From Paracoccaceae bacterium (GTDB taxonomy: Bacteria > Pseudomonadota > Alphaproteobacteria > Rhodobacterales > Rhodobacteraceae), in contig JAJFIC010000047.1 of the NCBI GenBank assembly GCA_021775315.1, positions 1 through 39,716 on the forward strand: 39,716 bases of DNA, given 5' to 3'. The position numbers were made by a program, and so were the translations under genes. Shown here one piece after another: positions 16,904 through 39,716 of the stretch (the stretch's first letter is position 1; every line of letters begins with the position of its first letter). The notes under the pieces are model-generated. The model saw nothing but the letters and a program-made list of their open reading frames with translations, had not been told where the DNA came from and made no database searches.

Positions 16904-17143
16904 ATGGCTGCCGATAAACAAAATTTGCAAGATGCATTTCTGAACAATGTCCGAAAATCAAAAATCTCAGTGACAATTTTCCTGATCAACGGGGTCAAGT
17001 TGCAGGGTGTTATTACCTGGTTTGACTCGTTTTGTGTGTTGTTGCGCCGGGACGGGCAATCGCAGCTGGTTTATAAAAGCGCGATCTCAACCATCATGCC
17101 ATCCCAACCGGTCAGCCTATACGAAGGCGATGACGGCACTTGA
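16904..17143 (+). CDS. hfq: RNA chaperone Hfq
   Basis: A 79-residue Sm-like protein that forms a hexameric ring and pairs small RNAs with messages. The Sm1 core ([10 protein letters not shown]...[13 protein letters not shown]) and Sm2 motif (V-Y-K-S-A-I-S-T-I at about 59-67) are intact, with a short acidic tail as in other Rhodobacteraceae. Gln9 and the surrounding N-terminal surface residues are kept. AAGG lies about 10 bases before the ATG. hflX follows 28 bases later. In Rhodobacter the equivalent gene is nrfA, needed for nif expression. Confidence 0.97.
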
Positions 17144-24920: not shown

Positions 24921-25071
24921 TGGGGCTTCCTTTGTCGATAATGCATCAAATTACGCGCCGCGTCGCGCAATAGCAAAAGTTTAGCGGATTTGCTATGGAA
25001 ATTCCTGCATCAATCGCTAGTGTGCGGCGAATTGCCGAAAAACAAAAGGCCCAGCTCAAAAGGGATAAACC

Positions 25072-25608
25072 TTGGATTGGTACGCAGGCGTAATTGAAGT
25101 GATCGATATGCGGTCCTTTACCTCTATCTGGTATTGGATCATCATTGCTGTTGTCTGGTCCTCAACCGCGCATTGGACAATGGGCGTGCCGTTTGACGCG
25201 GTGACGCGGGCGCGCAAGGCCGACACTGACGACAGCGGCGGTGCAGCGCAGGAAGACCTTGAAACCATCGTCCGGGTCAATTGCAATCGTATCGTTCATA
25301 TCATGGATGTGTCTGGCGCATGGATCGTGGCATTTGCCTTTTTTATGCTGACCATTCTGGCGCTTTTGGGATTTTGGTATAAAATCGAGATCGCACAGGC
25401 AATTTTTCTGATTGCGGGTCCGATGACGTTGGTGGCCCTGATTTCCGTGCGCAATGCGCGGCTGATCCGGGCGCGCGGCACCTTTGGTCAGGCGTTGCGC
25501 GCACATCTGGCGCGGCAGCGGTTTTTCAATCAGGTGATCGGCATGGTGTCGATTTTTATCACGGCCTTCTGGGGCATGTGGCACAATTTAAGCGCGACCG
25601 TTCTTTAG
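25072..25608 (+). CDS. Conserved membrane protein (annotated elsewhere as 'component of SufBCD complex')
   Basis: A 178-residue protein with about four membrane helices (near 16-33, 79-97, 102-122 and 152-170), a soluble segment rich in charged residues at 40-72, and an Asp/Trp-containing N-terminus (M-D-W-Y-A-G-V-I-E-V-I-D-M). Homologues in Rhodobacteraceae are often labelled 'component of SufBCD complex', but no suf genes are near and nothing here resembles an Fe-S assembly protein, so I treat the function as unknown. The start is TTG at 25072 with AAGGGA seven bases upstream. An ATG at 25108 would remove the conserved N-terminus. Confidence 0.8.
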   Translation: MDWYAGVIEVIDMRSFTSIWYWIIIAVVWSSTAHWTMGVPFDAVTRARKADTDDSGGAAQEDLETIVRVNCNRIVHIMDVSGAWIVAFAFFMLTILALLGFWYKIEIAQAIFLIAGPMTLVALISVRNARLIRARGTFGQALRAHLARQRFFNQVIGMVSIFITAFWGMWHNLSATVL

Positions 25609-25662
25609 ACCTGCCAGCGCTGGCTTGCAGCCCGCATTCAAATTGGTATAGCTGACCGCCTT

Positions 25663-28600
25663 ATGTCAAAAACCCCTGCCCATAAAAAGATAATCGTCGG
25701 AGGCGCGCCCGAAGGTTTTGATGGCCGTCTGCTGGCGCAATTGGTGCGCGAACGGGCAGGACCGGTCGTGCACATCGCACGTGATGATAAACGGCTGGAA
25801 GAAACCCGCAAAGCGGTTGAGTTTTTTGCACCTGATCTGCCTGTTTTCGTGTTTCCCGCCTGGGATTGCCTGCCTTACGACCGGGTTTCACCCAACCATG
25901 ACGTATCTGCCGCGCGCATGGCGACACTGGCGGCCCTTGCGCAGGGGTTTGACCGCCCGTTTTTGTTGCTGACCACGATCAACGCCGCCACGCAACGGGT
26001 TCCGGCGCGCTCAGTTTTGCAAACCTCAAGCTTCACAGCAACCGTCGGCAAACAGATCGACGAGGCGGCATTGCGCGAATTTCTGGTGCGCATGGGCTTC
26101 AATCAGGCCCCAACCGTGATGGAGCCCGGGGATTACGCCATTCGCGGCGGTCTGATTGATCTGTTTCCGCCGGGTGAAAGCGGCCCGGTGCGGCTTGATC
26201 TGTTTGGCGACGTGCTGGATGCCGCACGCCGGTTTGATCCGGAAAGCCAGCGCACGATTGAAAAGCTTGATCGGATCGAGCTGGCACCGGTATCAGAAAT
26301 CATACTGGACGAGGCCGCGATCCAGCGGTTCCGCCAGAATTACCGCCATGAATTTGGCGCGGCAGGCACCGATGATCCGCTTTATGAAGCGGTAAGTGCA
26401 GGGCGCAAACATCAGGGTATTGAGCATTGGGCGCCGTTCTTTCATGAAAGCATGGAAAGCCTGTTTGACTATTTGCCGGGTGCTGTTGTCTGTCTTGACG
26501 ATCAGACAACGCCTTACCGTCTGGAACGTTGGGACGGCATTGCGGATCAGTACGATGCCCGCAAGGAGGCGCTGAACGCCAAAGCCCGGCTTGATACGGT
26601 TTACAAACCTTGCCCGCCTGAATTGTTGTATCTTGACGATGCCGCGTTTGAGGCAACCCTTGCCAATTTTGAAGTTCGCCAGTTTGCGGCCCTTCCGCAA
26701 GGTTTTGGGCCGGGTGTGATTGATGCCGGTGGCCGGATCGGGCGGAATTTCGCTCCGGAACGCCAGGTCGAAGATGTCAGACTGTTTGGCGCGTTGGCCG
26801 ATCACATTGCCGCCCGCAAGGCCGAGGATCAGGTGATCCTTGCCTCGTATTCCGAAGGCGCGCGCGAACGCCTGTCGCATCTGCTGCGCGATGAGGATGT
26901 TGACGAAGGCAAAGGCGAAGGCACCCCGATTGCCCATTGGGGCGACGTGCCGGACGGCAAAGGTGGGCTGTTTTTGGCGGTCTGGGCATTGGAACATGGG
27001 TTCTCTGCACCCGGCCTGACTGTGATTTCCGAACAGGACGTGCTGGGTGATCGCCTGATCCGCGCGCCAAAACGCAAGCGCCGGGCCGAAAATTTCCTGA
27101 CCGAGGCAACGTCTATTTCCCCCGGTGATCTGATCGTACACGTGGATCATGGCGTCGGGCGGTATAACGGGCTGGAAACCATCACCGCCGCCGGTGCGCC
27201 GCATGAATGTATTGCGCTGGAATATGCCGGTGGTGATCGTCTGTTCCTGCCGGTTGAAAATATCGAACTGCTGTCGCGCTATGGCCACGAAGAAGGCATG
27301 CTTGACCGGTTGGGCGGCGGCGCGTGGCAGGCCAAGAAATCCAAGCTCAAAGAACGCATCCGCGAAATGGCGGATCGCCTGATCCGGGTGGCCGCTGAAC
27401 GCGCGCTGCGCACAGCGCCTTTGCTAACGGTGCCGGAACATGACCTTGACCGGTTTTGCGCGCGTTTTCCCTACACCGAAACCGATGATCAGTTGCACGC
27501 TATAACCGATGTTCTGGATGACATAAGTGCCGGTCGCCCGATGGATCGCCTGATTTGTGGCGATGTGGGTTTCGGCAAAACCGAAGTTGCCCTGCGCGCT
27601 GCCTTTGTCGCCGCGATGAGCGGCAAACAAGTGGCGGTGATCGCCCCGACCACGCTGCTGGCGCGTCAGCATTTCAAATCGTTTGAGGAACGTTTTCGCG
27701 GCCTGCCGATCACGGTGCGCACGCTGTCGCGCTTTGTGTCCACCAAGGACGCGGCAGAAACGCGCGAAGGGTTGGAAAAAGGCTCGGTCGATATTGTGGT
27801 TGGAACCCATGCGGTACTGGCCAAAGGCATGAAATTCCACGACCTTGGCATGATTGTGATTGATGAAGAGCAGAAATTTGGCGTCACCCACAAGGAACGC
27901 CTGAAACAATTGCGCAGCGATGTGCATGTGCTGACCCTGACCGCAACGCCGATCCCGCGCACCCTGCAATTGTCGCTGTCAGGCGTGCGTGATTTGTCGA
28001 TCATCGGCACGCCGCCGGTCGACCGTTTGGCCATCCGCACCTATGTCAGCGAGTTTGACACGGTTACAATCCGCGAGGCCTTGCTGCGTGAACATTACCG
28101 GGGTGGCCATTCATTTTACGTGGTGCCACGCATTTCCGATCTGGCCCAGATCAAAGAATTCCTGACCGATCATGTACCCGAAGTCAGCTTTGTCGTCGCC
28201 CATGGCCAGATGGCGGCAGGGCAGCTTGATGACCGGATGAATGCGTTTTATGACGGCAAATATGACGTGCTGCTGGCGACCACGATCGTCGAAAGTGGCC
28301 TCGACATTCCGACCGCCAACACCATGATTATTCACCGCGCTGACATGTTTGGCCTCGCGCAACTCTACCAGATCCGGGGCAGGGTTGGGCGCTCAAAAAC
28401 CCGCGCCTATGCCTATCTGACCACCAAGCCGCGCCAAAAGCTGACGAAAACCGCCCAAAAACGTCTGCGGGTGTTGGGCTCGCTTGACAGTTTGGGGGCT
28501 GGTTTCACGCTGGCGTCGCAAGATCTGGATATTCGCGGTGCGGGTAATATTCTGGGCGACGAACAATCGGGGCAGGTGCGCGAGGTCGGTTACGAGCTTT

Positions 28601-29139
28601 ACCAATCCATGCTGGAAGAAGCCATCGCTAAGATGAAGGCGGGCGAGATGGAAGGCCTGTCAGAGGCGGACGACAGCTGGGCCCCACAGATCAACCTTGG
28701 TGTGCCGGTGCTGATACCCGAGGCCTTTGTGCCCGATCTTGACGTACGGCTGGGCCTGTATCGGCGCCTGTCCGGTCTGCATGAAAAGGTCGAACTTGAA
28801 GGCTTTGCCGCGGAATTGATCGACCGGTTCGGCAAGCTACCGCGCGAGGTCAATATGCTGCTTAACATCGTGCGGATCAAATCCATGTGCAAACGGGCAG
28901 GCATCGCCCGTCTTGATGGCGGGCCAAAAGGTGCCACCATCCAGTTTCACAACGACAAATTCGCCGATCCCGGCGGGCTGGTAAAATTCATCGAGGATCA
29001 GCGCGGCCTTGCCAAAGTGCGCGACAACAAGATCGTCGTGCGGCGCGATTGGTCCAAGGCCAGTGACAAAGTCAAAGGGGCCTATGGAATTGCCCGTGAT
29101 CTGGCCAGTCTGGCTGCGGCATCGCGTCCCAAATCCTGA
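25663..29139 (+). CDS. mfd: Transcription-repair coupling factor Mfd
   Basis: A 1158-residue DNA translocase that removes RNA polymerase stalled at lesions and recruits UvrA. In order: UvrB-like N-terminal domains (residues 1 to about 350), the CarD-like polymerase-interaction domain beginning near 485 (S-P-G-D-L-I-V-H-V-D-H-G-V-G-R-Y), RecG-like helicase lobes with Walker A G-D-V-G-F-G-K-T at about 633-640 and D-E-E-Q at about 734-737, the A-T-P-I-P-R-T motif, and a C-terminal D7 domain from about 1000. Length is normal for the family. The gap to the previous gene (54 bases) holds a 12-base palindrome GCCAGCGCTGGC at 25613-25624. Confidence 0.98.
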   Translation: MSKTPAHKKIIVGGAPEGFDGRLLAQLVRERAGPVVHIARDDKRLEETRKAVEFFAPDLPVFVFPAWDCLPYDRVSPNHDVSAARMATLAALAQGFDRPFLLLTTINAATQRVPARSVLQTSSFTATVGKQIDEAALREFLVRMGFNQAPTVMEPGDYAIRGGLIDLFPPGESGPVRLDLFGDVLDAARRFDPESQRTIEKLDRIELAPVSEIILDEAAIQRFRQNYRHEFGAAGTDDPLYEAVSAGRKHQGIEHWAPFFHESMESLFDYLPGAVVCLDDQTTPYRLERWDGIADQYDARKEALNAKARLDTVYKPCPPELLYLDDAAFEATLANFEVRQFAALPQGFGPGVIDAGGRIGRNFAPERQVEDVRLFGALADHIAARKAEDQVILASYSEGARERLSHLLRDEDVDEGKGEGTPIAHWGDVPDGKGGLFLAVWALEHGFSAPGLTVISEQDVLGDRLIRAPKRKRRAENFLTEATSISPGDLIVHVDHGVGRYNGLETITAAGAPHECIALEYAGGDRLFLPVENIELLSRYGHEEGMLDRLGGGAWQAKKSKLKERIREMADRLIRVAAERALRTAPLLTVPEHDLDRFCARFPYTETDDQLHAITDVLDDISAGRPMDRLICGDVGFGKTEVALRAAFVAAMSGKQVAVIAPTTLLARQHFKSFEERFRGLPITVRTLSRFVSTKDAAETREGLEKGSVDIVVGTHAVLAKGMKFHDLGMIVIDEEQKFGVTHKERLKQLRSDVHVLTLTATPIPRTLQLSLSGVRDLSIIGTPPVDRLAIRTYVSEFDTVTIREALLREHYRGGHSFYVVPRISDLAQIKEFLTDHVPEVSFVVAHGQMAAGQLDDRMNAFYDGKYDVLLATTIVESGLDIPTANTMIIHRADMFGLAQLYQIRGRVGRSKTRAYAYLTTKPRQKLTKTAQKRLRVLGSLDSLGAGFTLASQDLDIRGAGNILGDEQSGQVREVGYELYQSMLEEAIAKMKAGEMEGLSEADDSWAPQINLGVPVLIPEAFVPDLDVRLGLYRRLSGLHEKVELEGFAAELIDRFGKLPREVNMLLNIVRIKSMCKRAGIARLDGGPKGATIQFHNDKFADPGGLVKFIEDQRGLAKVRDNKIVVRRDWSKASDKVKGAYGIARDLASLAAASRPKS

Positions 29140-29206
29140 CTTGTTATATTAGTGTTTACGAATATATGGAGTGAACAATCCGACCAGTGCCTTGGAAAGG
29201 GACCCC

Positions 29207-30151
29207 ATGCAACAGATCCTCCTCGTCGTTTCCGCAATTGCCCTTGGCCTGATATTTGGGGCCACGACCGGTGGTTTGGTGTTTTCCTCGCTGGTTTGTG
29301 TGGTGGCAGGGGTGTTTTTGGTCACGCCGTCGCTGTTTAAGTTTCAGCTTTCTGATCTGGCGTTGATTGGCAAGAATATGCCCAGCATCTGGCGAAACTT
29401 GTGGATCAATTACCTGCTGCTGACCTCCGCAGCCCTGATCATCGGTTATGCCAGCCAGGACATCGGCATTGCAGGCGCGTTGCTGCTGCTGGCCTTGTTG
29501 CCGGGTGGTGGCATGGTGATGATGTGGATCCGTACCAGTGGCGCCAATGTCAAACTCGGCTTTATAATCTTTATGCTCAATCTGGCACTTTTGCTGCCGA
29601 TCACCTTGATTTTCGGGGCTTTTTTCGATTTTGCCCAAGGCTGGTTTCCGGCCCCGGATCTTGGCAACGCCACAGGTGTTGCCGGTGGGCGGCAGATCAT
29701 GCCCTTTGCGCCGTTCATGATCCTGATCGTTATTCCCTTCGTGCTCAGCCGGATTGTACGCGCGGTGTTTCCCGGCGTGATCGACTTTACCGCCAAACAT
29801 CAGCAGCTGATTTCAAAGGCGACAATGTTTGGCATCGTGTTCTATTTGTTCAGCCTGTCGACATCGCAATTGCTGTTTGCGGTGTCCTTAAGCGACCTGA
29901 TCACCGCCATCATCGCAACCGGGGCGTTTTACGGCGTCGCCTTTCTGGCAGCCCGCTATCTGACCGATAGCACGGCCGAAGGACGCGCGGTTTATTGGCA
30001 TGTGGCAACGCGCTATATCACGCTGGCATTGATTTTGGCAGTGTTCAGCATCGACACTTATGGCGCCAGTTTTATCCTGCCGGTGATGATCGCCTATTTC
30101 ATTCAGATCGGCGCGGCAGGCGCGCTTAGCCGTCGAATGCAGGCGCGCTGA
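29207..30151 (+). CDS. ACR3/BASS-like membrane carrier
   Basis: A 314-residue protein with about ten hydrophobic helices. The fold pattern fits the bile acid:sodium symporter / arsenite permease ACR3 superfamily. In ACR3 the fourth helix carries a Cys needed for arsenite transport. The matching stretch here reads L-P-G-G-G-M-V-M-M-W, without Cys, and no ars genes are nearby, so an arsenite role is doubtful. I chose the ATG at 29207 with AAAGGGA five bases upstream. A GTG at 29171 in the same frame would add 12 residues. The 3' end overlaps the convergent efflux gene by 26 bases. Confidence 0.75.
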   Translation: MQQILLVVSAIALGLIFGATTGGLVFSSLVCVVAGVFLVTPSLFKFQLSDLALIGKNMPSIWRNLWINYLLLTSAALIIGYASQDIGIAGALLLLALLPGGGMVMMWIRTSGANVKLGFIIFMLNLALLLPITLIFGAFFDFAQGWFPAPDLGNATGVAGGRQIMPFAPFMILIVIPFVLSRIVRAVFPGVIDFTAKHQQLISKATMFGIVFYLFSLSTSQLLFAVSLSDLITAIIATGAFYGVAFLAARYLTDSTAEGRAVYWHVATRYITLALILAVFSIDTYGASFILPVMIAYFIQIGAAGALSRRMQAR

Positions 30152-31349
30152 CTTTTTGTTTGGGGTCGGTCAGCATCAAGCCAAACGAGGCGAGCGAACA
30201 TAACAGCGTGCCGATCACTAGCGGCATAGCGGTGCCGTCAAAGGCCAGCCCGATTGGAATGGCAATTGCCACGCCCAAAAACGTTGACGCCGCCCCGATG
30301 ATGGCCGCAGCCATGCCCGCGATATGGCCCATCGGTTCCATTGACAACGAGTTGAGATTGCCAAATGTCAGCCCTGGCACAAAGAACGAAATTACTGACC
30401 AGATCAGAAATATCGGGAACAGGCTGGCATTTGACAGATCGCCAAACCCCAGCAAAATCGCGAATAATGTTGTGATCACAAGCATGATGCCCATAGACGT
30501 AATGGCAATGGCGCGCATGCCAAACCGCACCACAAGCCCAGCATTCAGAAAACCGGATGCGCCGGATAATACCGCGATTCCAGCGAAGTACAGTGGAAAG
30601 TTAACGCCTGCACCAAAGGTATCGACGAACACTTGCTGGGCTGAACTAAGATAGCCAAACAATGCCCCATAGCCAAAAGCCAAAACCACGGTATAGGTGA
30701 CGACCACACGCGACGAGCAAACCTCGACCAAGGCAGCAGCATAAGGTTTCAACGCGATTGCGCGGCGTTTTTCGGGCGGATGGGTTTCCGGTTGGCGCAG
30801 ATGCAGCCAAAGTGCGCCGATCATCGCAAACACGATGAAAGCCCCGAAAATGCTGCGCCAGCCAAAGGCGTTCGCCAACGTCTGGCCGATCAGCGGCGCG
30901 ACCGCTGGTACCAGCACGAACAACACCATCGCCAGTGACATCACCCGCGCCATAGGGCGGCCTTGGTACAGATCGCGGATCATCGCAATGGTCACGGTGC
31001 GCGGCGCTGATACACCCACGCCTTGAATAAACCGGGCAATCAACAGCATCTCAAGCGTCTGGGCATAAATCGCCATGACACAAGCCGCCATATAAACCAG
31101 CAAGCCGCCCAGAATGACCGGCTTGCGCCCCACCGAATCTGACAATGGCCCGGTGAATAACTGGCCAAGCCCGGTACCCATGACGAAAACCGTGATGACA
31201 AGCTGGGCGCGGTTTATATCGCTCAGGCCCAGATCCCGACCGATTTCCGGAAAGGCTGGCAACATTGCATCCGAGCCAAAGGCGATCATCGCGAACATGA
31301 TCGCCACCAACAAGATGAACTCAAAAAAGGGCAGGGGTGTTTTGTTCAC
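30126..31349 (-). CDS. Bcr/CflA-type MFS drug efflux transporter
   Basis: A 407-residue proton-driven exporter with 12 predicted helices. Helix 1 carries the family's acidic site (F-G-S-D-A-M-L-P-A-F-P-E-I), and the loop between helices 2 and 3 shows the MFS motif G-P-L-S-D-S-V-G-R-K-P near residue 66. I chose the GTG at 31349, which overlaps the stop of the DsbA-like gene (GTGA). The 23-residue upstream extension is basic and has no homologous character. It is the last gene of a coupled three-gene operon, so it may export a product or substrate of the CoA ligase pathway. Confidence 0.9.
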   Translation of the reverse strand: MNKTPLPFFEFILLVAIMFAMIAFGSDAMLPAFPEIGRDLGLSDINRAQLVITVFVMGTGLGQLFTGPLSDSVGRKPVILGGLLVYMAACVMAIYAQTLEMLLIARFIQGVGVSAPRTVTIAMIRDLYQGRPMARVMSLAMVLFVLVPAVAPLIGQTLANAFGWRSIFGAFIVFAMIGALWLHLRQPETHPPEKRRAIALKPYAAALVEVCSSRVVVTYTVVLAFGYGALFGYLSSAQQVFVDTFGAGVNFPLYFAGIAVLSGASGFLNAGLVVRFGMRAIAITSMGIMLVITTLFAILLGFGDLSNASLFPIFLIWSVISFFVPGLTFGNLNSLSMEPMGHIAGMAAAIIGAASTFLGVAIAIPIGLAFDGTAMPLVIGTLLCSLASFGLMLTDPKQKVSAPAFDG

Positions 31350-32011
31350 GCGGGGGTTGGTCCGTTTTGTTCGTCTTGTGCAGCCTTCGCAGCAATCTCG
31401 TTTATCACGTTGTCCCACATCTCGGGCGGTTGTGCGCCCTGAACCACATAATGGTCATCAACGATAAAGCATGGCACACCGCGCACACCTTTTTCACGCG
31501 CATATTTATCGCGACCGCGAATGCCGTCTTTATCAACATCCTGCGCCAGAAGCTTGGCAATCATGTCCGGATCAATGCCAACCGATTTGGCGACATCAAT
31601 CAAAACCCCGTGGTCGGATATATCCCGGCCATTTTGGAAATAGGCCCTGAACAATTCGGTGACCAGTTCAGTTTGCACACCTTCCAGACCGGCCCAATGG
31701 ATCAGGCGATGGGCGTCTATGGTGTTTGGGGTGCGCTCAATCGCTTCAAAATTGACTTCGACCCCGGACTCGGTCGCGGCTTTTGCAATTTGGCCATAAA
31801 CATCAATCGCGCCAGACTTGCCGCCAAATTTATGCTCAAGATATTCGCGTCGCCCCATACCCTCTGGCGGCATATCCGGGTTTAGCTGGAACGGATGCCA
31901 TTCGATCTGAAACTCATGGTCGGGGTGTTTTTCCAAAGCCCGATCAAGCCGGGCTTTGCCGATAAAGCACCACGGGCAGATCGGGTCAGAGATAATATCA
32001 AGCTTGATCAC
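31346..32011 (-). CDS. DsbA-family oxidoreductase, FrnE-like
   Basis: A 221-residue cytoplasmic thioredoxin-fold protein without a signal peptide. The active site C-P-W-C is at residues 12-15 (S-D-P-I-C-P-W-C), with a long helical insertion and the cis-Pro segment G-V-R-G-V-P-C-F near residue 180. The FrnE group includes 2-hydroxychromene-2-carboxylate isomerase relatives and disulfide oxidoreductases linked to oxidative stress. It sits between the CoA ligase and the efflux pump, overlapping each by 4 bases, which ties it to that operon's unknown chemistry. Confidence 0.88.
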   Translation of the reverse strand: MIKLDIISDPICPWCFIGKARLDRALEKHPDHEFQIEWHPFQLNPDMPPEGMGRREYLEHKFGGKSGAIDVYGQIAKAATESGVEVNFEAIERTPNTIDAHRLIHWAGLEGVQTELVTELFRAYFQNGRDISDHGVLIDVAKSVGIDPDMIAKLLAQDVDKDGIRGRDKYAREKGVRGVPCFIVDDHYVVQGAQPPEMWDNVINEIAAKAAQDEQNGPTPA

Positions 32012-33537
32012 GGTAACCTCTTGAATTGAGCGCGCAAATCACCGCGCCTGAGTTTATTGTTGACGCCCTTGGGCAATTCATCCATAGCCACAAAAACCCG
32101 CGGGCATTTATAACGCGCCAATCGATCGCCGCACCAGTCGGCAAGCACCTTATCGGGCAATTCTACGACCGAATGATAGAAGGCCGCAATCACGAATACG
32201 TCAGGCTTGATCTCGACCATGGCGGCGGCGGATTCGGTGATCTGGGGATGGGCGGTTAGCGCAGTTTCCACTTCGATTGGCGACACGCGATAACCGCCTG
32301 CATTCATCATGTCGTCGTCGCGCCCCAGATAGGTAATCGCGCCACCTTGGCCCATTTGCACCATGTCACCGGTCAGAAACCATTCACCGTGAAATTTCGC
32401 CCGGGTTTCATCAGGTGCATTCAGATAGCCCAGCATCAGCCCCGGATCGCGATTTGAAACCGCCAGAATACCCGGCTTGCCCATTGGCACGATGGCATTG
32501 CTGACCTCGTCAAGAACCGCGATACGGCGGCCCTTTTGCGCAAACCCCGACACGCCGTCACGCGCCGGACTGAATGGGCTGGCAGAGACAAAGGTTGAAA
32601 CCTCGCTCATGCCCAAGGCCTCAAAAACAGGGCGACCGGTGGCTTGCGTCCAGGCCTGTTTCTGACTGGCTGGCAGCTTTTCCCCGGCAGACAATCCATG
32701 ACGCAGATCGGGCAGGGTAAGATCGCTGCCTGACTTTAACAATTGGCGGTAAACCCCCGGTGCGGCTGCAAAAATGCTGGCCTTGTGGTCGAGCAACAAA
32801 AGCGCAAGATCAGGGCGCGCCGTGTCATGCCGTGGAATAAGGGCCGTCGCACCAATCGCCCAAGGGTCCATCAACCCGGTGCCAAGCGTGTAAGTCCAGT
32901 TAAACGCCCCGGCATGCAATAGGCGATCACTGGATTTGAGGCCATACCAGCCGTCCCACATCATCCGTCGCGCCCAGATGGCGCGATGCGCATGCACCAC
33001 CCCGCGTGGCCGCCCTGAGGTACCAGAGGTATAAATGATATAGGCCGGGCGATCAGCGTCGCCCATTTGGTACGGACCCGGCGCATGCTGGCGCAGGGCC
33101 TTGATGTCGTCAGGACCCAAGGCCGGGCAGGCAAGGTCAGGCGGCTTAGCGGCGTCGGTGTCATAAACGACAAGGGCGGGTTTCAGATCGTCGATCAGGG
33201 ATTGAATTTCGCCGGGCGTCAATTGGGTCGAGGTTGGTACCGGCACAAACCCCGCAGCAATCGCCGCCAGAAACAGGATCGGAAAATTGACGTTGTTGCC
33301 AAGGCGCAGCAATACCCGACTGCCGGGTTTCAGACCCAGCGCTTGCAATCCGCCAGCGGTTGCCAGAATTGTCGCCTCAAGCGCTTGGTACCGCCAAACC
33401 TCAACCTTGTCGGGCGACAGGATCTCAAGCGCGGGTTTGTCGCCATTGGCTCCGGCCTGCGCCATTACATACGCCGCCATGTTAAACGGCTGCGGGCAGG
33501 GGGGCATCGGGCCTTGGTCAAAAAGAGACAGCGACAT
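32008..33537 (-). CDS. AMP-forming acyl/aryl-CoA synthetase
   Basis: A 509-residue adenylate-forming ligase of the benzoate-CoA-ligase-like group. The phosphate loop is Y-T-S-G-T-S-G-R-P-R-G-V at residues 169-180, with Arg in both places where Lys is usual. Further motifs are L-S-A-G-E-K-L, G-M-S-E-V, W-F-L-T-G-D-M, Y-L-G-R-D-D-D-M-M-N-A-G-G-Y-R-V, and the C-terminal L-P-K-G-V-N-N-K-L-R-R with the acylation Lys about residue 495. The acid substrate cannot be read from sequence; aromatic acids are likely. It is the first gene of the operon and divergent from the XRE-cupin regulator. Confidence 0.9.
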   Translation of the reverse strand: MSLSLFDQGPMPPCPQPFNMAAYVMAQAGANGDKPALEILSPDKVEVWRYQALEATILATAGGLQALGLKPGSRVLLRLGNNVNFPILFLAAIAAGFVPVPTSTQLTPGEIQSLIDDLKPALVVYDTDAAKPPDLACPALGPDDIKALRQHAPGPYQMGDADRPAYIIYTSGTSGRPRGVVHAHRAIWARRMMWDGWYGLKSSDRLLHAGAFNWTYTLGTGLMDPWAIGATALIPRHDTARPDLALLLLDHKASIFAAAPGVYRQLLKSGSDLTLPDLRHGLSAGEKLPASQKQAWTQATGRPVFEALGMSEVSTFVSASPFSPARDGVSGFAQKGRRIAVLDEVSNAIVPMGKPGILAVSNRDPGLMLGYLNAPDETRAKFHGEWFLTGDMVQMGQGGAITYLGRDDDMMNAGGYRVSPIEVETALTAHPQITESAAAMVEIKPDVFVIAAFYHSVVELPDKVLADWCGDRLARYKCPRVFVAMDELPKGVNNKLRRGDLRAQFKRLP

Positions 33538-33567
33538 ATACCGGCTTTAGCGTTTTGGCCAAGCCGC

Positions 33568-33616
33568 TGCCAGAGGCTATTGTGGTCTTACGGCGGTTCA
33601 CTTGGCTTGCCAGAGG
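33568..33616. repeat. Direct repeat TGCCAGAGG, 40-base period
   Basis: TGCCAGAGG occurs at 33568-33576 and 33608-33616 in the 121 bases between the CoA ligase and the regulator. A 40-base spacing is close to four helical turns. The second copy overlaps the -35 element of the regulator promoter and the edge of the palindrome. It could be a pair of binding sites. Confidence 0.45.
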
Positions 33617-33635
33617 GTCCGTGTGACCCTATTTA
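33607..33635 (+). promoter_or_regulatory. Predicted promoter of the XRE-cupin regulator
   Basis: The -35 is TTGCCA (33607-33612, five of six consensus positions), the spacer is exactly 17 bases, and the -10 is TATTTA (33630-33635, weaker). Transcription would begin near 33642, leaving a short leader with GAGGAAAAC before the ATG at 33659. This supports that ATG over the one at 33638. Confidence 0.5.
33614..33630. promoter_or_regulatory. Palindromic operator AGGGTC-N5-GACCCT
   Basis: A perfect 6+6 palindrome with a CGTGT centre fills the spacer between the predicted -35 and -10 elements. A bound protein would block or reshape this promoter. The nearest candidate is the product of the gene itself, and the divergent CoA ligase operon begins 77 bases away. 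Confidence 0.55.
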
Positions 33636-33658
33636 GGATGGATAAGATCGAGGAAAAC

Positions 33659-34282
33659 ATGAGCAAATCCAGCGAACCCAGCCTGATCCGCATGGCCCGC
33701 GCCGACGGGCGTGACGCTATGATAACGCCCCTGGTGCTTGGCGCGCGGGTGCGTGAATTGCGAAAAGCCCGCAACTGGACCTTAGAGCAAGCGGCGCAAC
33801 AGGCCGGGCTTGCCCGCTCGACCCTGTCAAAGATCGAAAACGATCAGATGTCGCCGACTTTTGATGCGGTCAAAAAGCTGGCCGATGGGCTTGGGATCTC
33901 CATTCCGCAGCTGTTCACGGCACCGCGCGGCGATCAGGTCATGGGGCGGATGGCGGTGACCAAATCAGGGCAGGGCAAGGCCCATCTGACGGCGACCTAT
34001 GAGCATGAATTGCTGGCCCCCAATCTGACCCGCAAACAAATGCTGCCTTACCGCGCCCGGATCAGAGCGCGGGATGTGGCAGAGTTCAATGGCTGGGTGC
34101 GCCATGACGGCGAAGAGTTTTTGTACGTTCTGTCCGGCGTTATCGAACTTTACAGCGAATTTTATGAACCAGTGGAAATGCGGCGCGGTGACAGTGCCTA
34201 TTATGACGCAGCAATGGGTCATAATGTGATTTCAACCAGTCAGGAAGACGCGGTTATTCTTTGGGTAACTTCGCTGGGGTGA
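33659..34282 (+). CDS. XRE-family transcriptional regulator with cupin sensor domain
   Basis: A 207-residue DNA-binding protein. A Cro/C1-type helix-turn-helix is at about residues 20-75 (L-E-Q-A-A-Q-Q-A-G-L-A-R-S-T-L-S-K-I-E). A cupin barrel follows at about 115-205 (H-D-G-E-E-F-L-Y-V-L-S-G, then G-D-S-A-Y-Y-D-A-A-M-G-H), which would sense a small ligand. This type commonly controls adjacent catabolic or polyamine genes. I chose the ATG at 33659 because GAGGAAAAC precedes it and the predicted promoter lies just upstream. The earlier ATG at 33638 would begin inside or at the transcription start. It is divergent from the CoA ligase operon. Confidence 0.9.
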   Translation: MSKSSEPSLIRMARADGRDAMITPLVLGARVRELRKARNWTLEQAAQQAGLARSTLSKIENDQMSPTFDAVKKLADGLGISIPQLFTAPRGDQVMGRMAVTKSGQGKAHLTATYEHELLAPNLTRKQMLPYRARIRARDVAEFNGWVRHDGEEFLYVLSGVIELYSEFYEPVEMRRGDSAYYDAAMGHNVISTSQEDAVILWVTSLG

Positions 34283-34379
34283 GCCAAAGTAAGTTCACGG
34301 CCGAAATACTGGATGAAATGATCCGGATAGTGGCCTGATTATAAGGTGTTATACCCACAGTTTAATGCATTTGCAGGAC

Positions 34380-34408
34380 AAAAAAAACGCCCTCACAAGG
34401 AGGGCGTT
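34380..34408 (-). terminator. Intrinsic terminator, minus strand
   Basis: AACGCCCTC (34386-34394) pairs perfectly with GAGGGCGTT (34400-34408) over 9 bp around a five-base loop. On the minus strand it runs into eight T residues (34387 down to 34380). On the plus strand no T run follows, so it acts for minus-strand transcription. No minus-strand gene lies just upstream of it other than the candidate small RNA. Confidence 0.85.
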
Positions 34409-34455
34409 AAGTTATTGAGGCAGGTTTCATACAGGCAAGAAACCTATCGAGCAGT
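34380..34455 (-). ncRNA. Candidate small regulatory RNA, about 76 nt
   Basis: Minus-strand transcription from the promoter at 34462-34490 would start near 34455 and stop at an intrinsic terminator with an eight-U tail at 34380. Inside are two hairpins: AGGTTTC/GAAACCT with a 10-base loop (34422-34445), and the terminator stem (34386-34408), which carries CCCUCCUU, complementary to a Shine-Dalgarno sequence. No coding frame of note lies inside. Long U tails favour Hfq binding, and anti-SD runs are used by some alphaproteobacterial small RNAs such as the CcsR group in Rhodobacter. I cannot match it to a known family. Confidence 0.6.
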
Positions 34456-34461
34456 GATGTC

Positions 34462-34490
34462 GTTATACGAAATACCCGCCTGTCCGCCAA
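34462..34490 (-). promoter_or_regulatory. Predicted promoter of the candidate small RNA
   Basis: Read on the minus strand: -35 TTGGCG (34490-34485, four of six), a 17-base spacer, and -10 TATAAC (34467-34462, five of six). It is the best promoter match I found in the window and points straight at the terminator 54 bases beyond. Confidence 0.6.
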
Positions 34491-34498
34491 GTTAAAAT

Positions 34499-34527
34499 TT
34501 GAAAATTTTGTGGCAGGTCAGTAGGCT
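34499..34527 (+). promoter_or_regulatory. Possible promoter of the binding-protein gene
   Basis: TTGAAA (34499-34504), a 17-base spacer and TAGGCT (34522-34527) face the gene at 34569. The -35 is good and the -10 is weak. It would be back to back with the small-RNA promoter, only nine bases away. Confidence 0.35.
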
Positions 34528-34568
34528 GGGCGTCTGAACTCACCTTTAGGGACCTTTTTGTTGCTCAG

Positions 34569-36377
34569 ATGACACGCTTGACCCCCACCACACTCCGACA
34601 TCTTCTGGTTGTTCTTGTGATCACAGCCTTTCCTGCAACGGCTATAGGCCAACCACAGCATGGCATAGCTATGTATGGGGACCCTGTCTTACCACCTGAT
34701 TTTGTGTCCTTACCCTACGCCAACCCCGCCGCACCCAAGGGTGGGCGAATCGCTTTTGGGGAAAACGGCGGCTTTGACAGCTTCAATCCCTATATCCGCA
34801 AAGGACGTGCTCCTTGGGGGGTCCGCGTGCATGTTTACGAGACCCTAATGGGGCGAAATTGGGACGAGCCATTTTCGCTTTACGGGCTTTTAGCCGAATC
34901 GATAGAGACCGGGGCGAATCGCGAATGGGTTGAATTCACCTTGCGGCCTGAGGCGCGGTTTTCAGACGGCGCGCCAGTGACAGTCGCGGACGTGATCTGG
35001 TCGTTTGAAACGCTGGCCAAGCAAGGCGTGCCGCGTTACGCCAATTCTTGGAGCAAAGTCGCGAAATCTGAACAAACCGGGCCGCGTTCTGTGCGGTTCA
35101 CATTCAGCCAGATTGACCGCGAATTGCCGCTGATTATCGGCCTGCGCCCAGTGCTGCAAAAATCCAGTTGGGAAGACCGGGAATTTTCTGACAGCAGTCT
35201 TGATCTGCCGATTGGCAGCGGCCCTTACGTAGTGGGTGAGTATGAGGCCAACCGCTTTGTTACCTTCCGCCGCAACCCCGACTATTGGGGCAACAAGCTG
35301 GGCTATAACCAAGGCCTGCACAATCTTAACCAGATCAAATACGAATATTTCCGCGACGCGTCCGTGACGTTTGAGGCCTTTGTGGCCGGCGAAACCTCGG
35401 TCTATCGCGAACTCAACGCCCAGAAATGGGAGGATCAGTTTAACTTTCCCGCCATTGCGAAGGGCGAGGTCGTCAAATCCGTCATCCCGCATGGTCGCCC
35501 GTCAGGTATGCGGGGTTTCGTTTTCAACACGCGCCGCGCGATCTTTGCCGATTGGCGGGTGCGTGATGCTTTGATCCACGCCTTTAACTTTGAATTCATC
35601 AATCATGTGGTTAACAAGGGCCGTGCGCCCCGGGCAGCCAGTTATTTCTCAAACTCTGAACTTGGCATGCGGCCCGGACCCGCCGAGGGGCAGGTAAAGG
35701 CCTTTCTGGCCCCCTTTGCCGACAGCCTGCCACCGGGTGCGCTTGATGGATACGCTTTGCCGCAATCAAACGGTAAGGAACGCAATCGCGCGAACCTGAA
35801 ACTTGCGGCTAAGCAATTGGCGGCGGCGGGCTGGAAGGTCGGCACCGACGGCGTTTTACGCGATGACAAGGGCGAGGTGTTTACCTTTGAAATCATGCTG
35901 CGATCCAGCGCAAACGAGGCGATTGCCAATCTGTTCAGTGATGCGCTCAAACGCTTGGGGATTTCGGTGACCTTGACGATTATCGACTCGGCTCAACACA
36001 AATCACGCCGCGATTCCTATGATTTTGATATGATGTTCAATGTCTGGAGCCTGTCGCTGTCGCCCGGAAATGAACAGCGGCTTTATTTCGGCTCGGCCGG
36101 GGTGGAAAATATCGGCACGCGCAATTTTATGGGGGTGAATTCCCCGGCGGCAGACGCGATGATCGAACGCATTCTGACCTCGGACAGCCGTGATGATTTC
36201 GTTGCTGCGACCCGCGCGCTTGATCGGGTTTTGACCTCGGGGCGCTATGTGATCCCGGTTTGGTACAACAATGTCAGTCGGTTGGCCCATCGGGCTGAGC
36301 TGAAGTTTCCGCAAAACCTGCCGGTCTATGGCGATTGGCTGGGCTTTTTGCCTGAAGTGTGGTGGTGGCAGGAGTAA
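34569..36377 (+). CDS. YejA-like periplasmic solute-binding protein (family 5)
   Basis: A 602-residue ABC-transporter binding protein. A Sec signal peptide (about 1-27, ending near A-T-A-I-G) precedes a family 5 domain of the oligopeptide/microcin C type: G-L-L-A-E-S-I-E, R-F-S-D-G-A-P-V-T-V-A-D-V-I-W-S-F, and G-S-G-P-Y-V-V. The W-x-x-K-L-G-Y-N segment is typical of YejA. In other bacteria yejA is followed by yejB, yejE and yejF. None are here, so the permease must be elsewhere. The nearest SD-like AGGGA is 17 bases or more from the ATG, so initiation may be weak or controlled. Confidence 0.9.
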   Translation: MTRLTPTTLRHLLVVLVITAFPATAIGQPQHGIAMYGDPVLPPDFVSLPYANPAAPKGGRIAFGENGGFDSFNPYIRKGRAPWGVRVHVYETLMGRNWDEPFSLYGLLAESIETGANREWVEFTLRPEARFSDGAPVTVADVIWSFETLAKQGVPRYANSWSKVAKSEQTGPRSVRFTFSQIDRELPLIIGLRPVLQKSSWEDREFSDSSLDLPIGSGPYVVGEYEANRFVTFRRNPDYWGNKLGYNQGLHNLNQIKYEYFRDASVTFEAFVAGETSVYRELNAQKWEDQFNFPAIAKGEVVKSVIPHGRPSGMRGFVFNTRRAIFADWRVRDALIHAFNFEFINHVVNKGRAPRAASYFSNSELGMRPGPAEGQVKAFLAPFADSLPPGALDGYALPQSNGKERNRANLKLAAKQLAAAGWKVGTDGVLRDDKGEVFTFEIMLRSSANEAIANLFSDALKRLGISVTLTIIDSAQHKSRRDSYDFDMMFNVWSLSLSPGNEQRLYFGSAGVENIGTRNFMGVNSPAADAMIERILTSDSRDDFVAATRALDRVLTSGRYVIPVWYNNVSRLAHRAELKFPQNLPVYGDWLGFLPEVWWWQE

Positions 36378-36391
36378 ACGGGTTCTACGGA

Positions 36392-37006
36392 TCAAAAAAC
36401 CGAGGTGACAAGCCCAAAAGCGATCACCAACATGACCCCGCCGACCAAAACATCCAGCACCTGCCAGGCCCGCGCTGTTTGCATCAACGGCGACAAAAAC
36501 CGCGCGCCATAGCCAAGCGAGAAAAAGAAAACAAAGGACGAGGCGGCTGCGGCCAAGCCAAAAACCAACCGATCACCCGCTGCCTGATATTGCGACGACA
36601 CCGCACCAATCAGACCCAATGTGTCAAGATAGACATGCGGGTTGAGCCAGGTCAGCGCCAGCCCCATCAACAGCGTTGACCAAAGACTGGTAACGCGGTC
36701 GCCGGTTTGCGGGGTGTCATATATTCCCCTATTAGCGGCGCGAAACCGGGTGATGGCGTAGACAATCAAAAACGCAGCACCCGCCAAGGCCATAACATCC
36801 GGAAACCGCGGGCTAAGCTTCACCAACCAGCCAAAACCGGCCACACCAAGCGCGATTAGTATCGCGTCAGACGCCGCACATAACAGACAAAGCGCAAACA
36901 CGTTCTGGCGCAGCAAACCTTGCCGCAACACAAAAGCGTTTTGCGCACCAATCGCCAGAATAAGGGAAAAGCCGGTGAAAAAACCGGTCAACGCGACGGA
37001 AATCAT
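36392..37006 (-). CDS. LysE/ArgO-family amino acid exporter
   Basis: A 204-residue membrane exporter with about five or six helices. The N-terminal family signature G-A-Q-N-A-F-V-L-R-Q-G-L is at about residues 20-31, and T-W-L-N-P-H-V-Y-L-D-T occurs near residue 118. Relatives export lysine or arginine. The usual LysG/ArgP regulator is not adjacent. It starts seven bases after the DUF502 gene, without its own SD, so it is probably co-translated. It is convergent with the binding-protein gene across 14 bases. Confidence 0.92.
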   Translation of the reverse strand: MISVALTGFFTGFSLILAIGAQNAFVLRQGLLRQNVFALCLLCAASDAILIALGVAGFGWLVKLSPRFPDVMALAGAAFLIVYAITRFRAANRGIYDTPQTGDRVTSLWSTLLMGLALTWLNPHVYLDTLGLIGAVSSQYQAAGDRLVFGLAAAASSFVFFFSLGYGARFLSPLMQTARAWQVLDVLVGGVMLVIAFGLVTSVF

Positions 37007-37013
37007 TCAGAGG

Positions 37014-37733
37014 TCACTTATCCGGGTCAACCTTGTCCGCTTCATCCGCCAACGCAGGTGCAGAACGGCCGGGGGGGTTGATCAATCCAGCCGAGATCAC
37101 CAGCTTGGCGGCCATTTCAACGTCCATGTCCAGAATGATCACGTCCCTTTTGGGCACGAACAGTAAGAAGCCAGAGGTCGGGTTGGGCGTTGTCGGTAAA
37201 AACACACTCACAAACGGCTCATCCCCCGGCAGTTTATCCAGCACTTCGCCTTTGGTGTCGGTTGAAACAAACGCAACCGCCCAAATGCCTTTGCGCGGAT
37301 ATTCCACCAGACAAGCCTGCTCAAACGATGAACTGGACTGGCTGAGCACGGTTTCGATGATTTGCTTAAGCGCATTATAAACCGACCGCACAATCGGCAT
37401 CCGGTCGACAATGCGTTCCGCCCATTGCAAAACCGCGCGCCCCAGAAACCCTTTTGCCAGTGAACCGACAAAAACCGTGAAGATCAGAAAAACGATGACG
37501 CCGTAACCTTTGACATCAATGCCAAGATAAGGCTGCGGCTGATAGCGCGCTGGCACCAGCGGCAGCACGAAACTGTCGATCAGTCCGACAAACCACCACA
37601 TCAGGTAGGCCGTAAAAAACACCGGCGCGACCACGATCATCCCGGTCAGGAAATTGGCCCGCAAATTGGACAAGAAACTGGCGCGGCGAACCTCGCGTCG
37701 TTGTTTGCGTTCATGTTTGCGGTTCGGGGTCAT
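37014..37733 (-). CDS. DUF502 membrane protein
   Basis: A 239-residue protein of the DUF502 family. A basic N-terminus (M-T-P-N-R-K-H-E-R-K-Q-R-R-E-V-R-R) precedes two membrane helices at about 30-52 and 78-98. A soluble domain follows, with P-I-V-R-S-V-Y-N-A-L-K-Q-I and T-P-N-P-T-S-G-F-L-L-F-V-P as family landmarks. The function is not established. GAGAAAG lies just before the ATG, and a possible promoter lies upstream. The C-terminal tail is acidic. Coupling to lysE suggests a joint message but not a joint function. Confidence 0.88.
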   Translation of the reverse strand: MTPNRKHERKQRREVRRASFLSNLRANFLTGMIVVAPVFFTAYLMWWFVGLIDSFVLPLVPARYQPQPYLGIDVKGYGVIVFLIFTVFVGSLAKGFLGRAVLQWAERIVDRMPIVRSVYNALKQIIETVLSQSSSSFEQACLVEYPRKGIWAVAFVSTDTKGEVLDKLPGDEPFVSVFLPTTPNPTSGFLLFVPKRDVIILDMDVEMAAKLVISAGLINPPGRSAPALADEADKVDPDK

Positions 37734-37761
37734 GCGCTTTCTCGATGGAACAATCAGGTAT

Positions 37762-37789
37762 ATTTAAGTTGGCTTTGGCCCAAACACAA
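37762..37789 (-). promoter_or_regulatory. Possible promoter of DUF502-lysE
   Basis: On the minus strand, TTGTGT (37789-37784), a 16-base spacer and TTAAAT (37767-37762) would start transcription near 37755, about 20 bases before the ATG at 37733. Both hexamers are imperfect. The 84-base gap after psuG is otherwise empty. Confidence 0.35.
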
Positions 37790-37817
37790 TGGGGCAGACG
37801 GGCGGATCAACAGAATG

Positions 37818-38741
37818 TCAGGTGTGTTTGTCCTGCTCAAGCAGGGCGCGGGCTATGTCGCTGGCAAGCCGCGCGTTGTTCAGAACCAGTGAAATATTCG
37901 CTGTCAGGGACCGGCCTTCGGTCAGTTCAAATATCCGGCCTAACAGGAACGGCGTAACGTGTTTTTGTCCGATATTTTCAGCCGCAGCCTCGCGCAGCGC
38001 GCGTTCGATCATCGGCCCGATCTCAGCCAAAGGGATTTCATCCTGCTGGCTGATCGGATTGGCAATCAACTGGCCACCGGGCAGGCTTAACAAGCCGCGC
38101 ATCCGGTGCGCCGACGCAATTTCAGTGGCATTTTCAAGCCGCAAAGGCGATTGCAAACCTGATGAGCGCGCCCAAAAGCCCGGAAAATCGGCTTGTCCCA
38201 GCGTGATCACCGGCACGCCCAATGTTTCCAGCACTTCCAGCGTTTTGGGGATGTCCAGAATGGCCTTAGCCCCGGCGCAGACCACGCTGACCGGGGTTTG
38301 GGCCAGTTCATTCAGGTCAGCGGAAATATCAAAGCTTTGATCGGCACCACGATGCACACCACCAATGCCGCCGGTTGCGAATACTTCTATCCCCGCAAGA
38401 TCGGCAATGATCATGGTCGCCGCAACCGTAGTTGCCCCGGTTGCCCTTGTCGCAAGACATACCGCCAGATCGGCCCGGCTGAGCTTTTGGACGTCGCGTG
38501 CGCGGGCCAAACTTTCCAGCGCCGCAAGTTCCAGCCCGACATGGATGTGACCGTCAAGCACCGCAATTGTTGCAGGCACGGCACCCACATTTCGCACCTC
38601 GGCCTCGACCAATCGCGCGGTTTCCAGATTTTGCGGATAGGGCATGCCATGGGTGATGATCGTGCTTTCAAGCGCAACCACGGCCCGCCCGTCAGCCAGT
38701 GCCTCAGCAACCTCGCCTGAACAACTAAGAGGCAATTTCAT
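37818..38741 (-). CDS. psuG: Pseudouridine-5'-phosphate glycosidase
   Basis: A 307-residue enzyme that splits the C-C bond of pseudouridine 5'-phosphate to uracil and ribose 5-phosphate. The N-terminal V-A-L-E-S-T-I-I-T-H-G-M-P-Y-P-Q-N is diagnostic, with catalytic Glu25. The Schiff-base lysine is most likely Lys159 (C-A-G-A-K-A-I-L-D), by comparison with Lys166 of the E. coli enzyme. Other landmarks are F-A-T-G-G-I-G-G-V-H-R-G and A-N-P-I. The ATG overlaps the psuK stop by 4 bases, so the two are coupled. Together they degrade pseudouridine from RNA turnover. Confidence 0.96.
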   Translation of the reverse strand: MKLPLSCSGEVAEALADGRAVVALESTIITHGMPYPQNLETARLVEAEVRNVGAVPATIAVLDGHIHVGLELAALESLARARDVQKLSRADLAVCLATRATGATTVAATMIIADLAGIEVFATGGIGGVHRGADQSFDISADLNELAQTPVSVVCAGAKAILDIPKTLEVLETLGVPVITLGQADFPGFWARSSGLQSPLRLENATEIASAHRMRGLLSLPGGQLIANPISQQDEIPLAEIGPMIERALREAAAENIGQKHVTPFLLGRIFELTEGRSLTANISLVLNNARLASDIARALLEQDKHT

Positions 38742-39631
38742 AACGGTTTCTCACTTGATATATAACTCGCCGCCATCTCAAGGGCAGAATTCAGCGCCGC
38801 CGCCGGTGCCTCGCCCTTCAGATCAGCCGCCATATGGGCCGCCATGAAAACATCCCCAGCCCCGGTGATGCGGCTTACCATAACATTTGGCGGCATCTGG
38901 CTGATCACACCTGATTTGTCTGCCATCGTCGCCGGATGCGGCCCATTGGTGACCAGCACCCGCGCCAACCCGCGATCAAGTAGGGCGCGCGCCGCCTGAT
39001 CGGAACGCTCAAACTGGTCATGGGTCAACAGGTTCGCCTCTTGCAGGTTCACATAAAGGGTCGCGTTGTTTTGCCCCAAAAACGCCTGCAAACGTTCGGC
39101 CTTGCCGGGCGAGGCCGGGGCCACGCGCAAATCAGCCGCGCGAAACATTTCACCTTGGGCAATTTCGATCAACATCTCTGCAGTCAGATTGCCGTCTAGC
39201 GCCACCATGCCTGTCCAGGGGTTTTGCTGGTCTGCAAGGCGACCATCCTCAAGTGGTTGCAGAATTTTCCGCCCGGCCGCTTCCAGCGAATGCGCATCTG
39301 CAATCGCTGCGATCAAGCCATTCGCACCTTCAACCGCCATATACCGATCCGTCGGCAGATCGTCAGACAGATAGGTGAATTCAGTTAACAACCCCTTATT
39401 GCGGGCCAGTTTCAGCAACTCGCCCCCCTCATCATCACGCCCAATGGCCGACAACAGGGCCGTACGAATACCAAACCCGTTCAAAGCCATAGCAATATTC
39501 ATCGCAACACCACCGGGCAGGCGGCTGATGCGGCCCGGCACATCTGAGCCTTGCTTCATATGGGACGCACTGCGCCCGATAATGTCCCAAAGCACGGACC
39601 CGATGCATAAAACCTGTGGCAATTCTTTCAT
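38738..39631 (-). CDS. psuK: PfkB-family pseudouridine kinase
   Basis: A 297-residue sugar/nucleoside kinase that should phosphorylate pseudouridine at the 5' position for PsuG. The N-terminal G-S-V-L-W-D-I-I-G-R and G-G-V-A-M-N-I-A-M-A-L-N-G-F-G are substrate-binding landmarks. The C-terminal R-I-T-G-A-G-D-V-F-M-A-A holds the catalytic Asp and anion hole. Substrate is inferred from the coupled psuG gene. I chose the ATG at 39631, where the family N-terminus begins. The frame continues to a TTG at 39703 with low-quality sequence. No clear SD is visible. Confidence 0.9.
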   Translation of the reverse strand: MKELPQVLCIGSVLWDIIGRSASHMKQGSDVPGRISRLPGGVAMNIAMALNGFGIRTALLSAIGRDDEGGELLKLARNKGLLTEFTYLSDDLPTDRYMAVEGANGLIAAIADAHSLEAAGRKILQPLEDGRLADQQNPWTGMVALDGNLTAEMLIEIAQGEMFRAADLRVAPASPGKAERLQAFLGQNNATLYVNLQEANLLTHDQFERSDQAARALLDRGLARVLVTNGPHPATMADKSGVISQMPPNVMVSRITGAGDVFMAAHMAADLKGEAPAAALNSALEMAASYISSEKPL

Positions 39632-39716
39632 GCGTCTATATGGCCGAGCATCGCACCGCCTTGCAATAGGCCCGCCCGGCTTCTTCTTTTCAAAAATATC
39701 CAAAAAGCCCGCTCGA

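Follow-up and report, generated by a model that had tools for sequence, protein, structure and literature searches.

In R. sphaeroides, the leader of mraZ, which heads the division (dcw) gene cluster, is reported to yield the small RNA (sRNA) UpsM (RSs0682), 206 nt in length, from which RNase E produces a 130-nt 3' piece (PMC5089854, PMC6238624) with its 5' end at 694,720 (PMC6238624). Both the long mraZ leader and UpsM are described as characteristic of Rhodobacteraceae (PMC5089854). StsR (RSs0827), a small orphan sRNA of the same species with its own promoter and terminator and wide conservation in the family, has been reported to base-pair with UpsM as well as with the dcw leader and to stimulate cleavage by RNase E; it is the only sRNA partner of UpsM named in the literature found. 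SorY (RSs1543), also an orphan sRNA with its own promoter and terminator, has its transcription start site at 1,632,642 (PMC6238624), and the Rhodobacter stress sRNAs CcsR1-4 (RSs0680a-d) are reported to be processed from the 3' UTR of a precursor mRNA (PMC8307010). The Rfam family RF00519 (suhB/mmgR, alpha-r8) combines a hairpin with a terminator at a length similar to that of the RNA described here.

The window, by which we mean the whole stretch of 39,716 nt analysed, carries on its minus strand (34490-34380) what is, judged from its sequence, a genuine independent sRNA gene. The RNA resembles StsR as a small orphan sRNA with its own promoter and terminator and wide conservation in the family but differs from it in gene, sequence and place in the genome; upstream of StsR stands CCCATGTTA, whereas the new gene is preceded by CTTGG-17-TATAA. 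It is predicted to pair with the UpsM/dcw leader at a site other than that predicted for StsR, which would pair with the 5' end of UpsM, while the new sRNA would pair further in. UpsM, a leader-derived RNA, is its proposed partner or target and not a homologue.

Gene structure and neighbourhood

Direct reading of the minus strand shows TTGGCG (34490-34485) and TATAAC (34467-34462) separated by 17 nt; behind them, two hairpins and a T run are contained within 76 nt (Table 1). The promoter, the 7-bp internal hairpin (AGGTTTC/GAAACCT with a 10-nt loop) and the 9-bp terminator with eight U residues that the preliminary description had proposed are all present, two of the eight Ts belonging to the terminator stem. 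Our promoter-scan list does not include this promoter because the scan rule requires T as the final base of the -10 element; it rises above chance because it is conserved in relatives. Among the 59 relatives with the promoter in view, CTTG was found in 57 and CTTGG in 51. The -10 element, whose conservation had been named as a check on the gene, is kept as TATAA in 42, and the spacer is 17 nt in 38 of the 41 relatives in which both boxes were recognised. A conserved ACUGCUCG stands at the putative 5' end of the sRNA. The A+T-rich element at 34492-34505, found as CAAACTTTT in 38 of the 59 relatives, is better conserved than the promoter spacer and possibly represents an activator or UP-like site.

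RpoH-type -35 elements begin with CTTG, and the -35 region of two distant relatives (loci L063 and L064) reads CTTGAAA. Control of the sRNA promoter by RpoH is possible; the common TATAA -10 element would suit the main sigma factor as well.

For the predicted 76-nt RNA the folding energy is -23.7 kcal/mol (z -4.64), a value reached by 0 of 200 shuffles. A scan of positions 25000-39716 gave 23 terminator-like matches, about as many as in shuffles (mean 19.5, sd 4.2); the terminator of the sRNA, with six G-C among its nine pairs, has the most G-C pairs of the 23. The Rfam search that had been suggested gave 0 matches to Rfam 15 families at the gathering threshold in the window, and no tRNA was found in it.

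In 58 of 60 loci, the gene lying divergently next to the sRNA encodes the same solute-binding protein. The two exceptions are a locus cut by a contig end (L060) and one with no match in its 2,001 bases (L035). The convergent HTH/cupin regulator gene was mostly not detected at the sRNA locus of relatives (tblastn match in 7 of 60 loci). The window also holds hfq, as had been stated, and an hflX-type gene comes next.

Table 1. Positions of the sRNA gene, its parts and selected genes in the window
Feature	Position	Strand	Remarks
-35 element TTGGCG	34485..34490	-	Mostly CTTGGA/CTTGGC in relatives
-10 element TATAAC, 17-nt spacer	34462..34467	-	From sequence and relatives
A+T-rich element just 5' of -35	34492..34505	-	TTTTCAAATTTTAA in the window; CAAACTTTT in many relatives
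Predicted small RNA gene, about 76 nt	34380..34455	-	5' end placed from promoter and conservation
Hairpin 1, AGGTTTC-loop-GAAACCT	34422..34445	-	Arms 34445-34439 and 34428-34422
Hairpin-1 loop TTGCCTGTAT, 10 nt	34429-34438	-
17-nt antisense element GCCTGTATGAAACCTGC	34420..34436	-	Perfect complement of the own-genome mraZ/dcw leader, L002:1501-1517, on another contig
Seed GCCTGTAT	34429-34436	-	Within the antisense element
Rho-independent terminator stem-loop	34386..34408	-	CCUCCUU in arm and loop, unconserved
Terminator T run, eight Ts	34380..34387	-	Two Ts inside the stem; direct reading
Extracellular solute-binding protein family 5 gene	34569..36377	+	Divergent from the sRNA; Pfam SBP_bac_5, E 6e-67
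HTH (Cro/C1 type) and cupin regulator gene	33602..34282	+	Convergent with the sRNA
hfq	16904-17143		Pfam Hfq, E 3e-32

Conservation and identity of the RNA

The sRNA gene was found at E <= 1e-5 in 384 of 394 family genomes and in 345 of the 347 of good quality. In a sample of 101 genomes, a DNA search matched it in 60 of 61 family members, the sole miss (genome G042) being 74% complete; the 40 genomes of other families gave four weak partial matches (E 0.02-0.07) and none in the rest. We then used a covariance model built from 25 sRNA sequences (R1), against which the window sRNA, itself part of the model, scored 102.7 bits. All 61 genomes of an order sample matched, and all 61 are family members. 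In a class sample of 190 genomes searched under strict filters, three matched, all from the family, and the 20 genomes listed among the misses belong to other families. The family is presumably Rhodobacteraceae, judging from the named Cereibacter-type genomes and G060. Of the Roseobacter-wide trans-acting RNA that the preliminary description had considered, the wide conservation is borne out and the trans action is probable, but the range is that of the family, beyond Roseobacter alone.

The first 40 nt of the sRNA (ACTGCTCGATAGGTTTCTTGCCTGTATGAAACCTGCCTCA) are nearly invariant in the 59 relatives taken at full length, a set that leaves aside the incomplete sRNA cut in G004, and 32 of the 39 invariant columns in the 25-sequence alignment fall within them. 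Six of the seven pairs of hairpin 1 never vary in the 25 distinct sequences, and since the stem hardly varies, it gives no covariation evidence for or against the hairpin. The terminator stem shows compensating changes, with four of nine pairs altered on both sides. The covariation that had been proposed as a check is therefore seen in the terminator, and hairpin 1 is too invariant to show any.

The same comparison bears on the reading of the terminator loop as an anti-Shine-Dalgarno element, in which CCUCCU would sequester ribosome-binding sites as in RNAs of the CcsR or mmgR type. CcsR sRNAs carry a CCUCCU loop motif, and CCCUCCUU is present in the window sRNA and its close relatives. However, the run CCCTCCTT of the window terminator was found in only 9 of 59 relatives and CCTCC in 11 of 59, and other relatives keep the terminator stem with different letters (CCCGCC, CCAGCC or CCGGCC). 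The near-invariant part is the 5' 40 nt instead. With CCTCC in just 11 of 59 terminators the idea is unsupported, and as a conserved function it is contradicted; we regard it as very improbable, while a side activity of this kind at the level of the genus is possible. In addition, the new sRNA has its own promoter, unlike the CcsR RNAs.

Identity with StsR would account for the shared proposed partner, the similar size (StsR is given as 72 nt, PMC8307010) and the family-wide occurrence. However, the published Northern probe for StsR (PMC11354728) falls on a different gene in three named genomes of the Cereibacter type, which carry the sRNA at separate loci. G060, which we take to be R. sphaeroides 2.4.1 because its mraZ stands at 694907, a sequence with a terminator lies where SorY is reported to start and the StsR gene is located at 858 kb, carries StsR at C4:858023-858151 and the sRNA at C4:1443996-1444116. 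Since the printed probe marks a different gene and locus, StsR can be ruled out, and the chance of identity is close to nil. The StsR gene identified with this probe has matches in 61 of 64 genomes searched at E <= 1, many below 1e-5; in the window's own genome it lies at L160 (G000:C84:18556-18632) and keeps CACTGTCCCTCGTTCCGCAC.

SorY was rejected as well: a different sequence stands at the SorY start site in G060, where the sRNA lies at 1,444 kb. RF00519 was ruled out on its score (24.4 bits against a gathering cut-off of 41, with better matches elsewhere in the window's genome, the best at 31.8 bits), on the absence of the sRNA place in G060 among its matches and on the missing single-stranded UUUcCUCCCU of the model. 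The 31.8-bit match (L161; G000:C102:116407-116484), a sub-threshold mmgR match, may be the alpha-r8 gene of the window's genome.

Six core 13-mers of the sRNA, in DNA and RNA letters, had no match in the literature text searched, and the name prefixes RSs13 and RSs14 led to no Rhodobacter paper there. The sRNA may already be catalogued without a function among the 79 known and predicted sRNAs counted in R. sphaeroides (PMC8625941). The intergenic sRNAs of 78-85 nt reported from P. denitrificans (PMC5107571) and the trans sRNAs of Ruegeria pomeroyi (PMC4809877) could also include it; among the matches listed, no coordinates of those published sRNAs coincided with the sRNA loci.

Complementarity to the mraZ leader

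Apart from the gene itself, the strongest match to the sRNA in the same genome covers 17 of 17 bases (BLAST E 0.12) and lies on the opposite strand, upstream of a gene whose protein we recognise as MraZ. Within the nearly invariant 5' 40 nt, complementarity to the mraZ (dcw, UpsM) leader resides in the loop and the 3' arm. An mraZ match was present in 63 genomes, and we took the leader from 62 of them. The loop complement ATACAGGC was found in 55 of the 62, once in each, and the longer complements TTCATACAGGC and TTTCATACAGGC in 47 and 40, respectively. The seven leaders without ATACAGGC comprise two cut by a contig end (G026 and, to judge from locus length, apparently G004), three with a deletion (G036, G039 and G059) and two without a site (G017 and G038). 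G031 has no mraZ match. The C. johrii assembly G103, which stands outside the 62, has two mraZ leaders with the same site (L072 and L075, on contigs C155 and C247), perhaps through assembly duplication.

For the pairing test, 52 leaders were compared with the sRNA of the same genome, that is, the 55 minus G042, where no sRNA was found, and G101 and G102, whose sRNAs (L068 and L070) were left out. The longest perfect complement had a median of 17 nt (range 9-18) in these leaders, which were preselected for the 8-mer; base-shuffled leaders averaged 6.9 and never exceeded 13. Next, the exact 13-mer TTTCATACAGGCA was searched for in 41 genomes. The 25 family genomes accounted for 39 of its 40 matches, at the sRNA gene (23), at the mraZ leader (14) and elsewhere (2); the remaining match came from the 16 other genomes. 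The reversed pattern gave 0 matches in the 41 genomes. Further exact-seed matches in G012 and G074 fall within long open frames, and inspection of a stretch in G050 revealed no exact seed. The leader site also appears accessible, with a mean unpaired probability of 0.69 for the seed compared with 0.40 elsewhere in the same 55 leaders, where 13% of the other windows reach or exceed the seed median.

Duplex energies were less discriminating. When 3,958 windows of the given contig served as controls, a single site, covered by two overlapping windows, reached -34.6 compared with -33.9 for the leader site, and 36 of the 52 leader sites are weaker than this best control, so raw duplex energy does not single the leader site out. 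Full-length duplex energy is weak evidence, as only 13 of the 52 leaders did better than every one of 100 shuffles (mean z -1.9).

The three leaders with a damaged seed (G036, G039 and G059, each missing one or two seed bases) all carry GAGGCAGG before the seed, which allows a longer pairing. This sequence was found in 0 of the 55 intact-seed leaders, and the shorter AGGCAGG in 3 of them. The three genomes are not grouped together on a FastTree tree of the partial protein of the neighbouring gene, and their duplex energies are -36.8 to -38.1 compared with a mean of -33.3 for the 52. Although this observation was made post hoc, it is the best evidence that pairing itself, beyond sequence, would be kept. 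Two-sided change of sRNA and target cannot be expected to appear, since the sRNA is too invariant. There are also genomes in which one side stands by itself: G017 retains the sRNA and its leader lacks the site, and G042 has the leader site and no sRNA was found in this 74% complete genome. In G038 the sRNA loop has drifted and the leader has no clear site; this diverged leader gives -19.0 with its own sRNA compared with -22.5 with the window sRNA.

The position of the site was examined in G060. The site occupies 694,689-694,706 and ends 14 nt ahead of the RNase E cut given in the literature. Counting from the 130-nt piece, it corresponds to about nt 46-63, in the 5' part of UpsM, with an uncertainty of some 8 nt because the leader is reported as 268 nt and the visible GTG lies 260 nt from that start. 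The own promoter, the intrinsic terminator, the intergenic place, the conservation and the retained complementarity to a putative target RNA from another locus are among the properties expected of a trans-acting base-pairing sRNA.

Possible mode of action

The gene, its family-wide conservation, the complementarity with its position and the extended complement at damaged seeds can be read in the genomes, and we infer that the RNA would be transcribed, use Hfq and form the duplex. It appears likely that it is a trans-acting antisense sRNA that pairs with the mraZ leader and thereby alters folding of the UpsM/dcw leader, RNase E processing and division-gene expression. The hairpin-1 loop (UUGCCUGUAU) and the adjoining 3' arm would base-pair with the long mraZ 5' leader, in a segment also released as UpsM. 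Pairing would begin between the loop and an open leader stretch of 8-9 nt (AUACAGGCA) and then spread into the 3' arm of the sRNA, to a maximum of 18 bp. The duplex would alter the UpsM 5' domain just ahead of the RNase E site, and the changed folding and processing would in turn change expression of the division genes, with cleavage either promoted or blocked. The sRNA would act alongside StsR, which is itself predicted to pair at another site. Forty near-invariant nucleotides for a pairing of 18 bp at most imply further targets or protein contacts.

The same pairing would also underlie the reverse relation, in which UpsM is the regulator: the abundant UpsM, or the dcw leader, would sponge the sRNA during fast growth, and other targets would be hit when UpsM falls. 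About 60% of the Hfq-bound sRNA of R. sphaeroides is reported to be UpsM, with a drop in its level in stationary phase (PMC8307010, PMC5089854), and leaders that keep mainly the seed region opposite an sRNA near-invariant over 40 nt are the pattern expected of a multi-target hub. Candidate targets for the released sRNA are a gene start next to the gene for a terminase, seen in four related genomes, and a motB-like start, seen in a single genome, but these are lineage-specific and come from pairing predictions; we hold this relation to be possible, at less than an even chance. That the RNA is mainly a regulator of several mRNAs, with the UpsM pairing of minor weight, would likewise suit the 40 near-invariant nucleotides. 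In G011, G029, G034 and G056, one clade on the neighbour-protein tree, the 5' arm and loop complement (19-22 of 26) the gene start directly upstream of the terminase large subunit gene, with duplexes of -36 to -44 kcal/mol. Terminase matches were found in 58 genomes, and the leaders of 42 were examined; the other 38 reach at most 18 of 26 (G006 and G010), and given this narrow gap the case for the terminase site rests on its place and the seed. However, only the mraZ leader site was seen to recur family-wide, and no other recurrent place emerged when the exact 13-mer was sought in 25 family genomes; for other seeds of the sRNA, the genome-wide coverage was that of one BLAST. We consider a mainly multi-target role unlikely. 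Since the antisense mechanism, the sponge and the multi-target role are compatible with one another, their probabilities overlap.

The complementary start lies at about 412-440 in L157 and about 429-456 in L158, and in the same gene in L163 and L164 (G029, G011, G034, G056). Pfam and PHROGs name only the second gene of the pair, the terminase; we take the two to be, probably, g1 and g2 of the gene transfer agent. G041 has a MotB-type gene (Pfam MotB_plug) whose start is closely preceded by 20 nt perfectly complementary to the sRNA, at L159:451-470 (G041:C17:169550-169569).

A broader and rather improbable proposal is that the RNA is a family-wide hub set by mutual pairing with UpsM, sponged when division transcription is high and freed for lineage-specific targets when it is low. 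If this were true, its targets would include the first gene of the gene transfer agent in one clade and motB in one genome, and division would be tied to gene transfer and motility. Returning to the antisense mechanism and the sponge, the sRNA is most likely either a second antisense regulator of UpsM/dcw or a partner that UpsM/dcw sponges, and probably a so far undescribed switch of cell division. Among the sRNAs of exponentially growing R. sphaeroides, UpsM is reported to be the most abundant. A second sRNA directed at it, near-invariant and with its antisense element close to the cut site, would mean an extra layer of control on the division cluster throughout the family.
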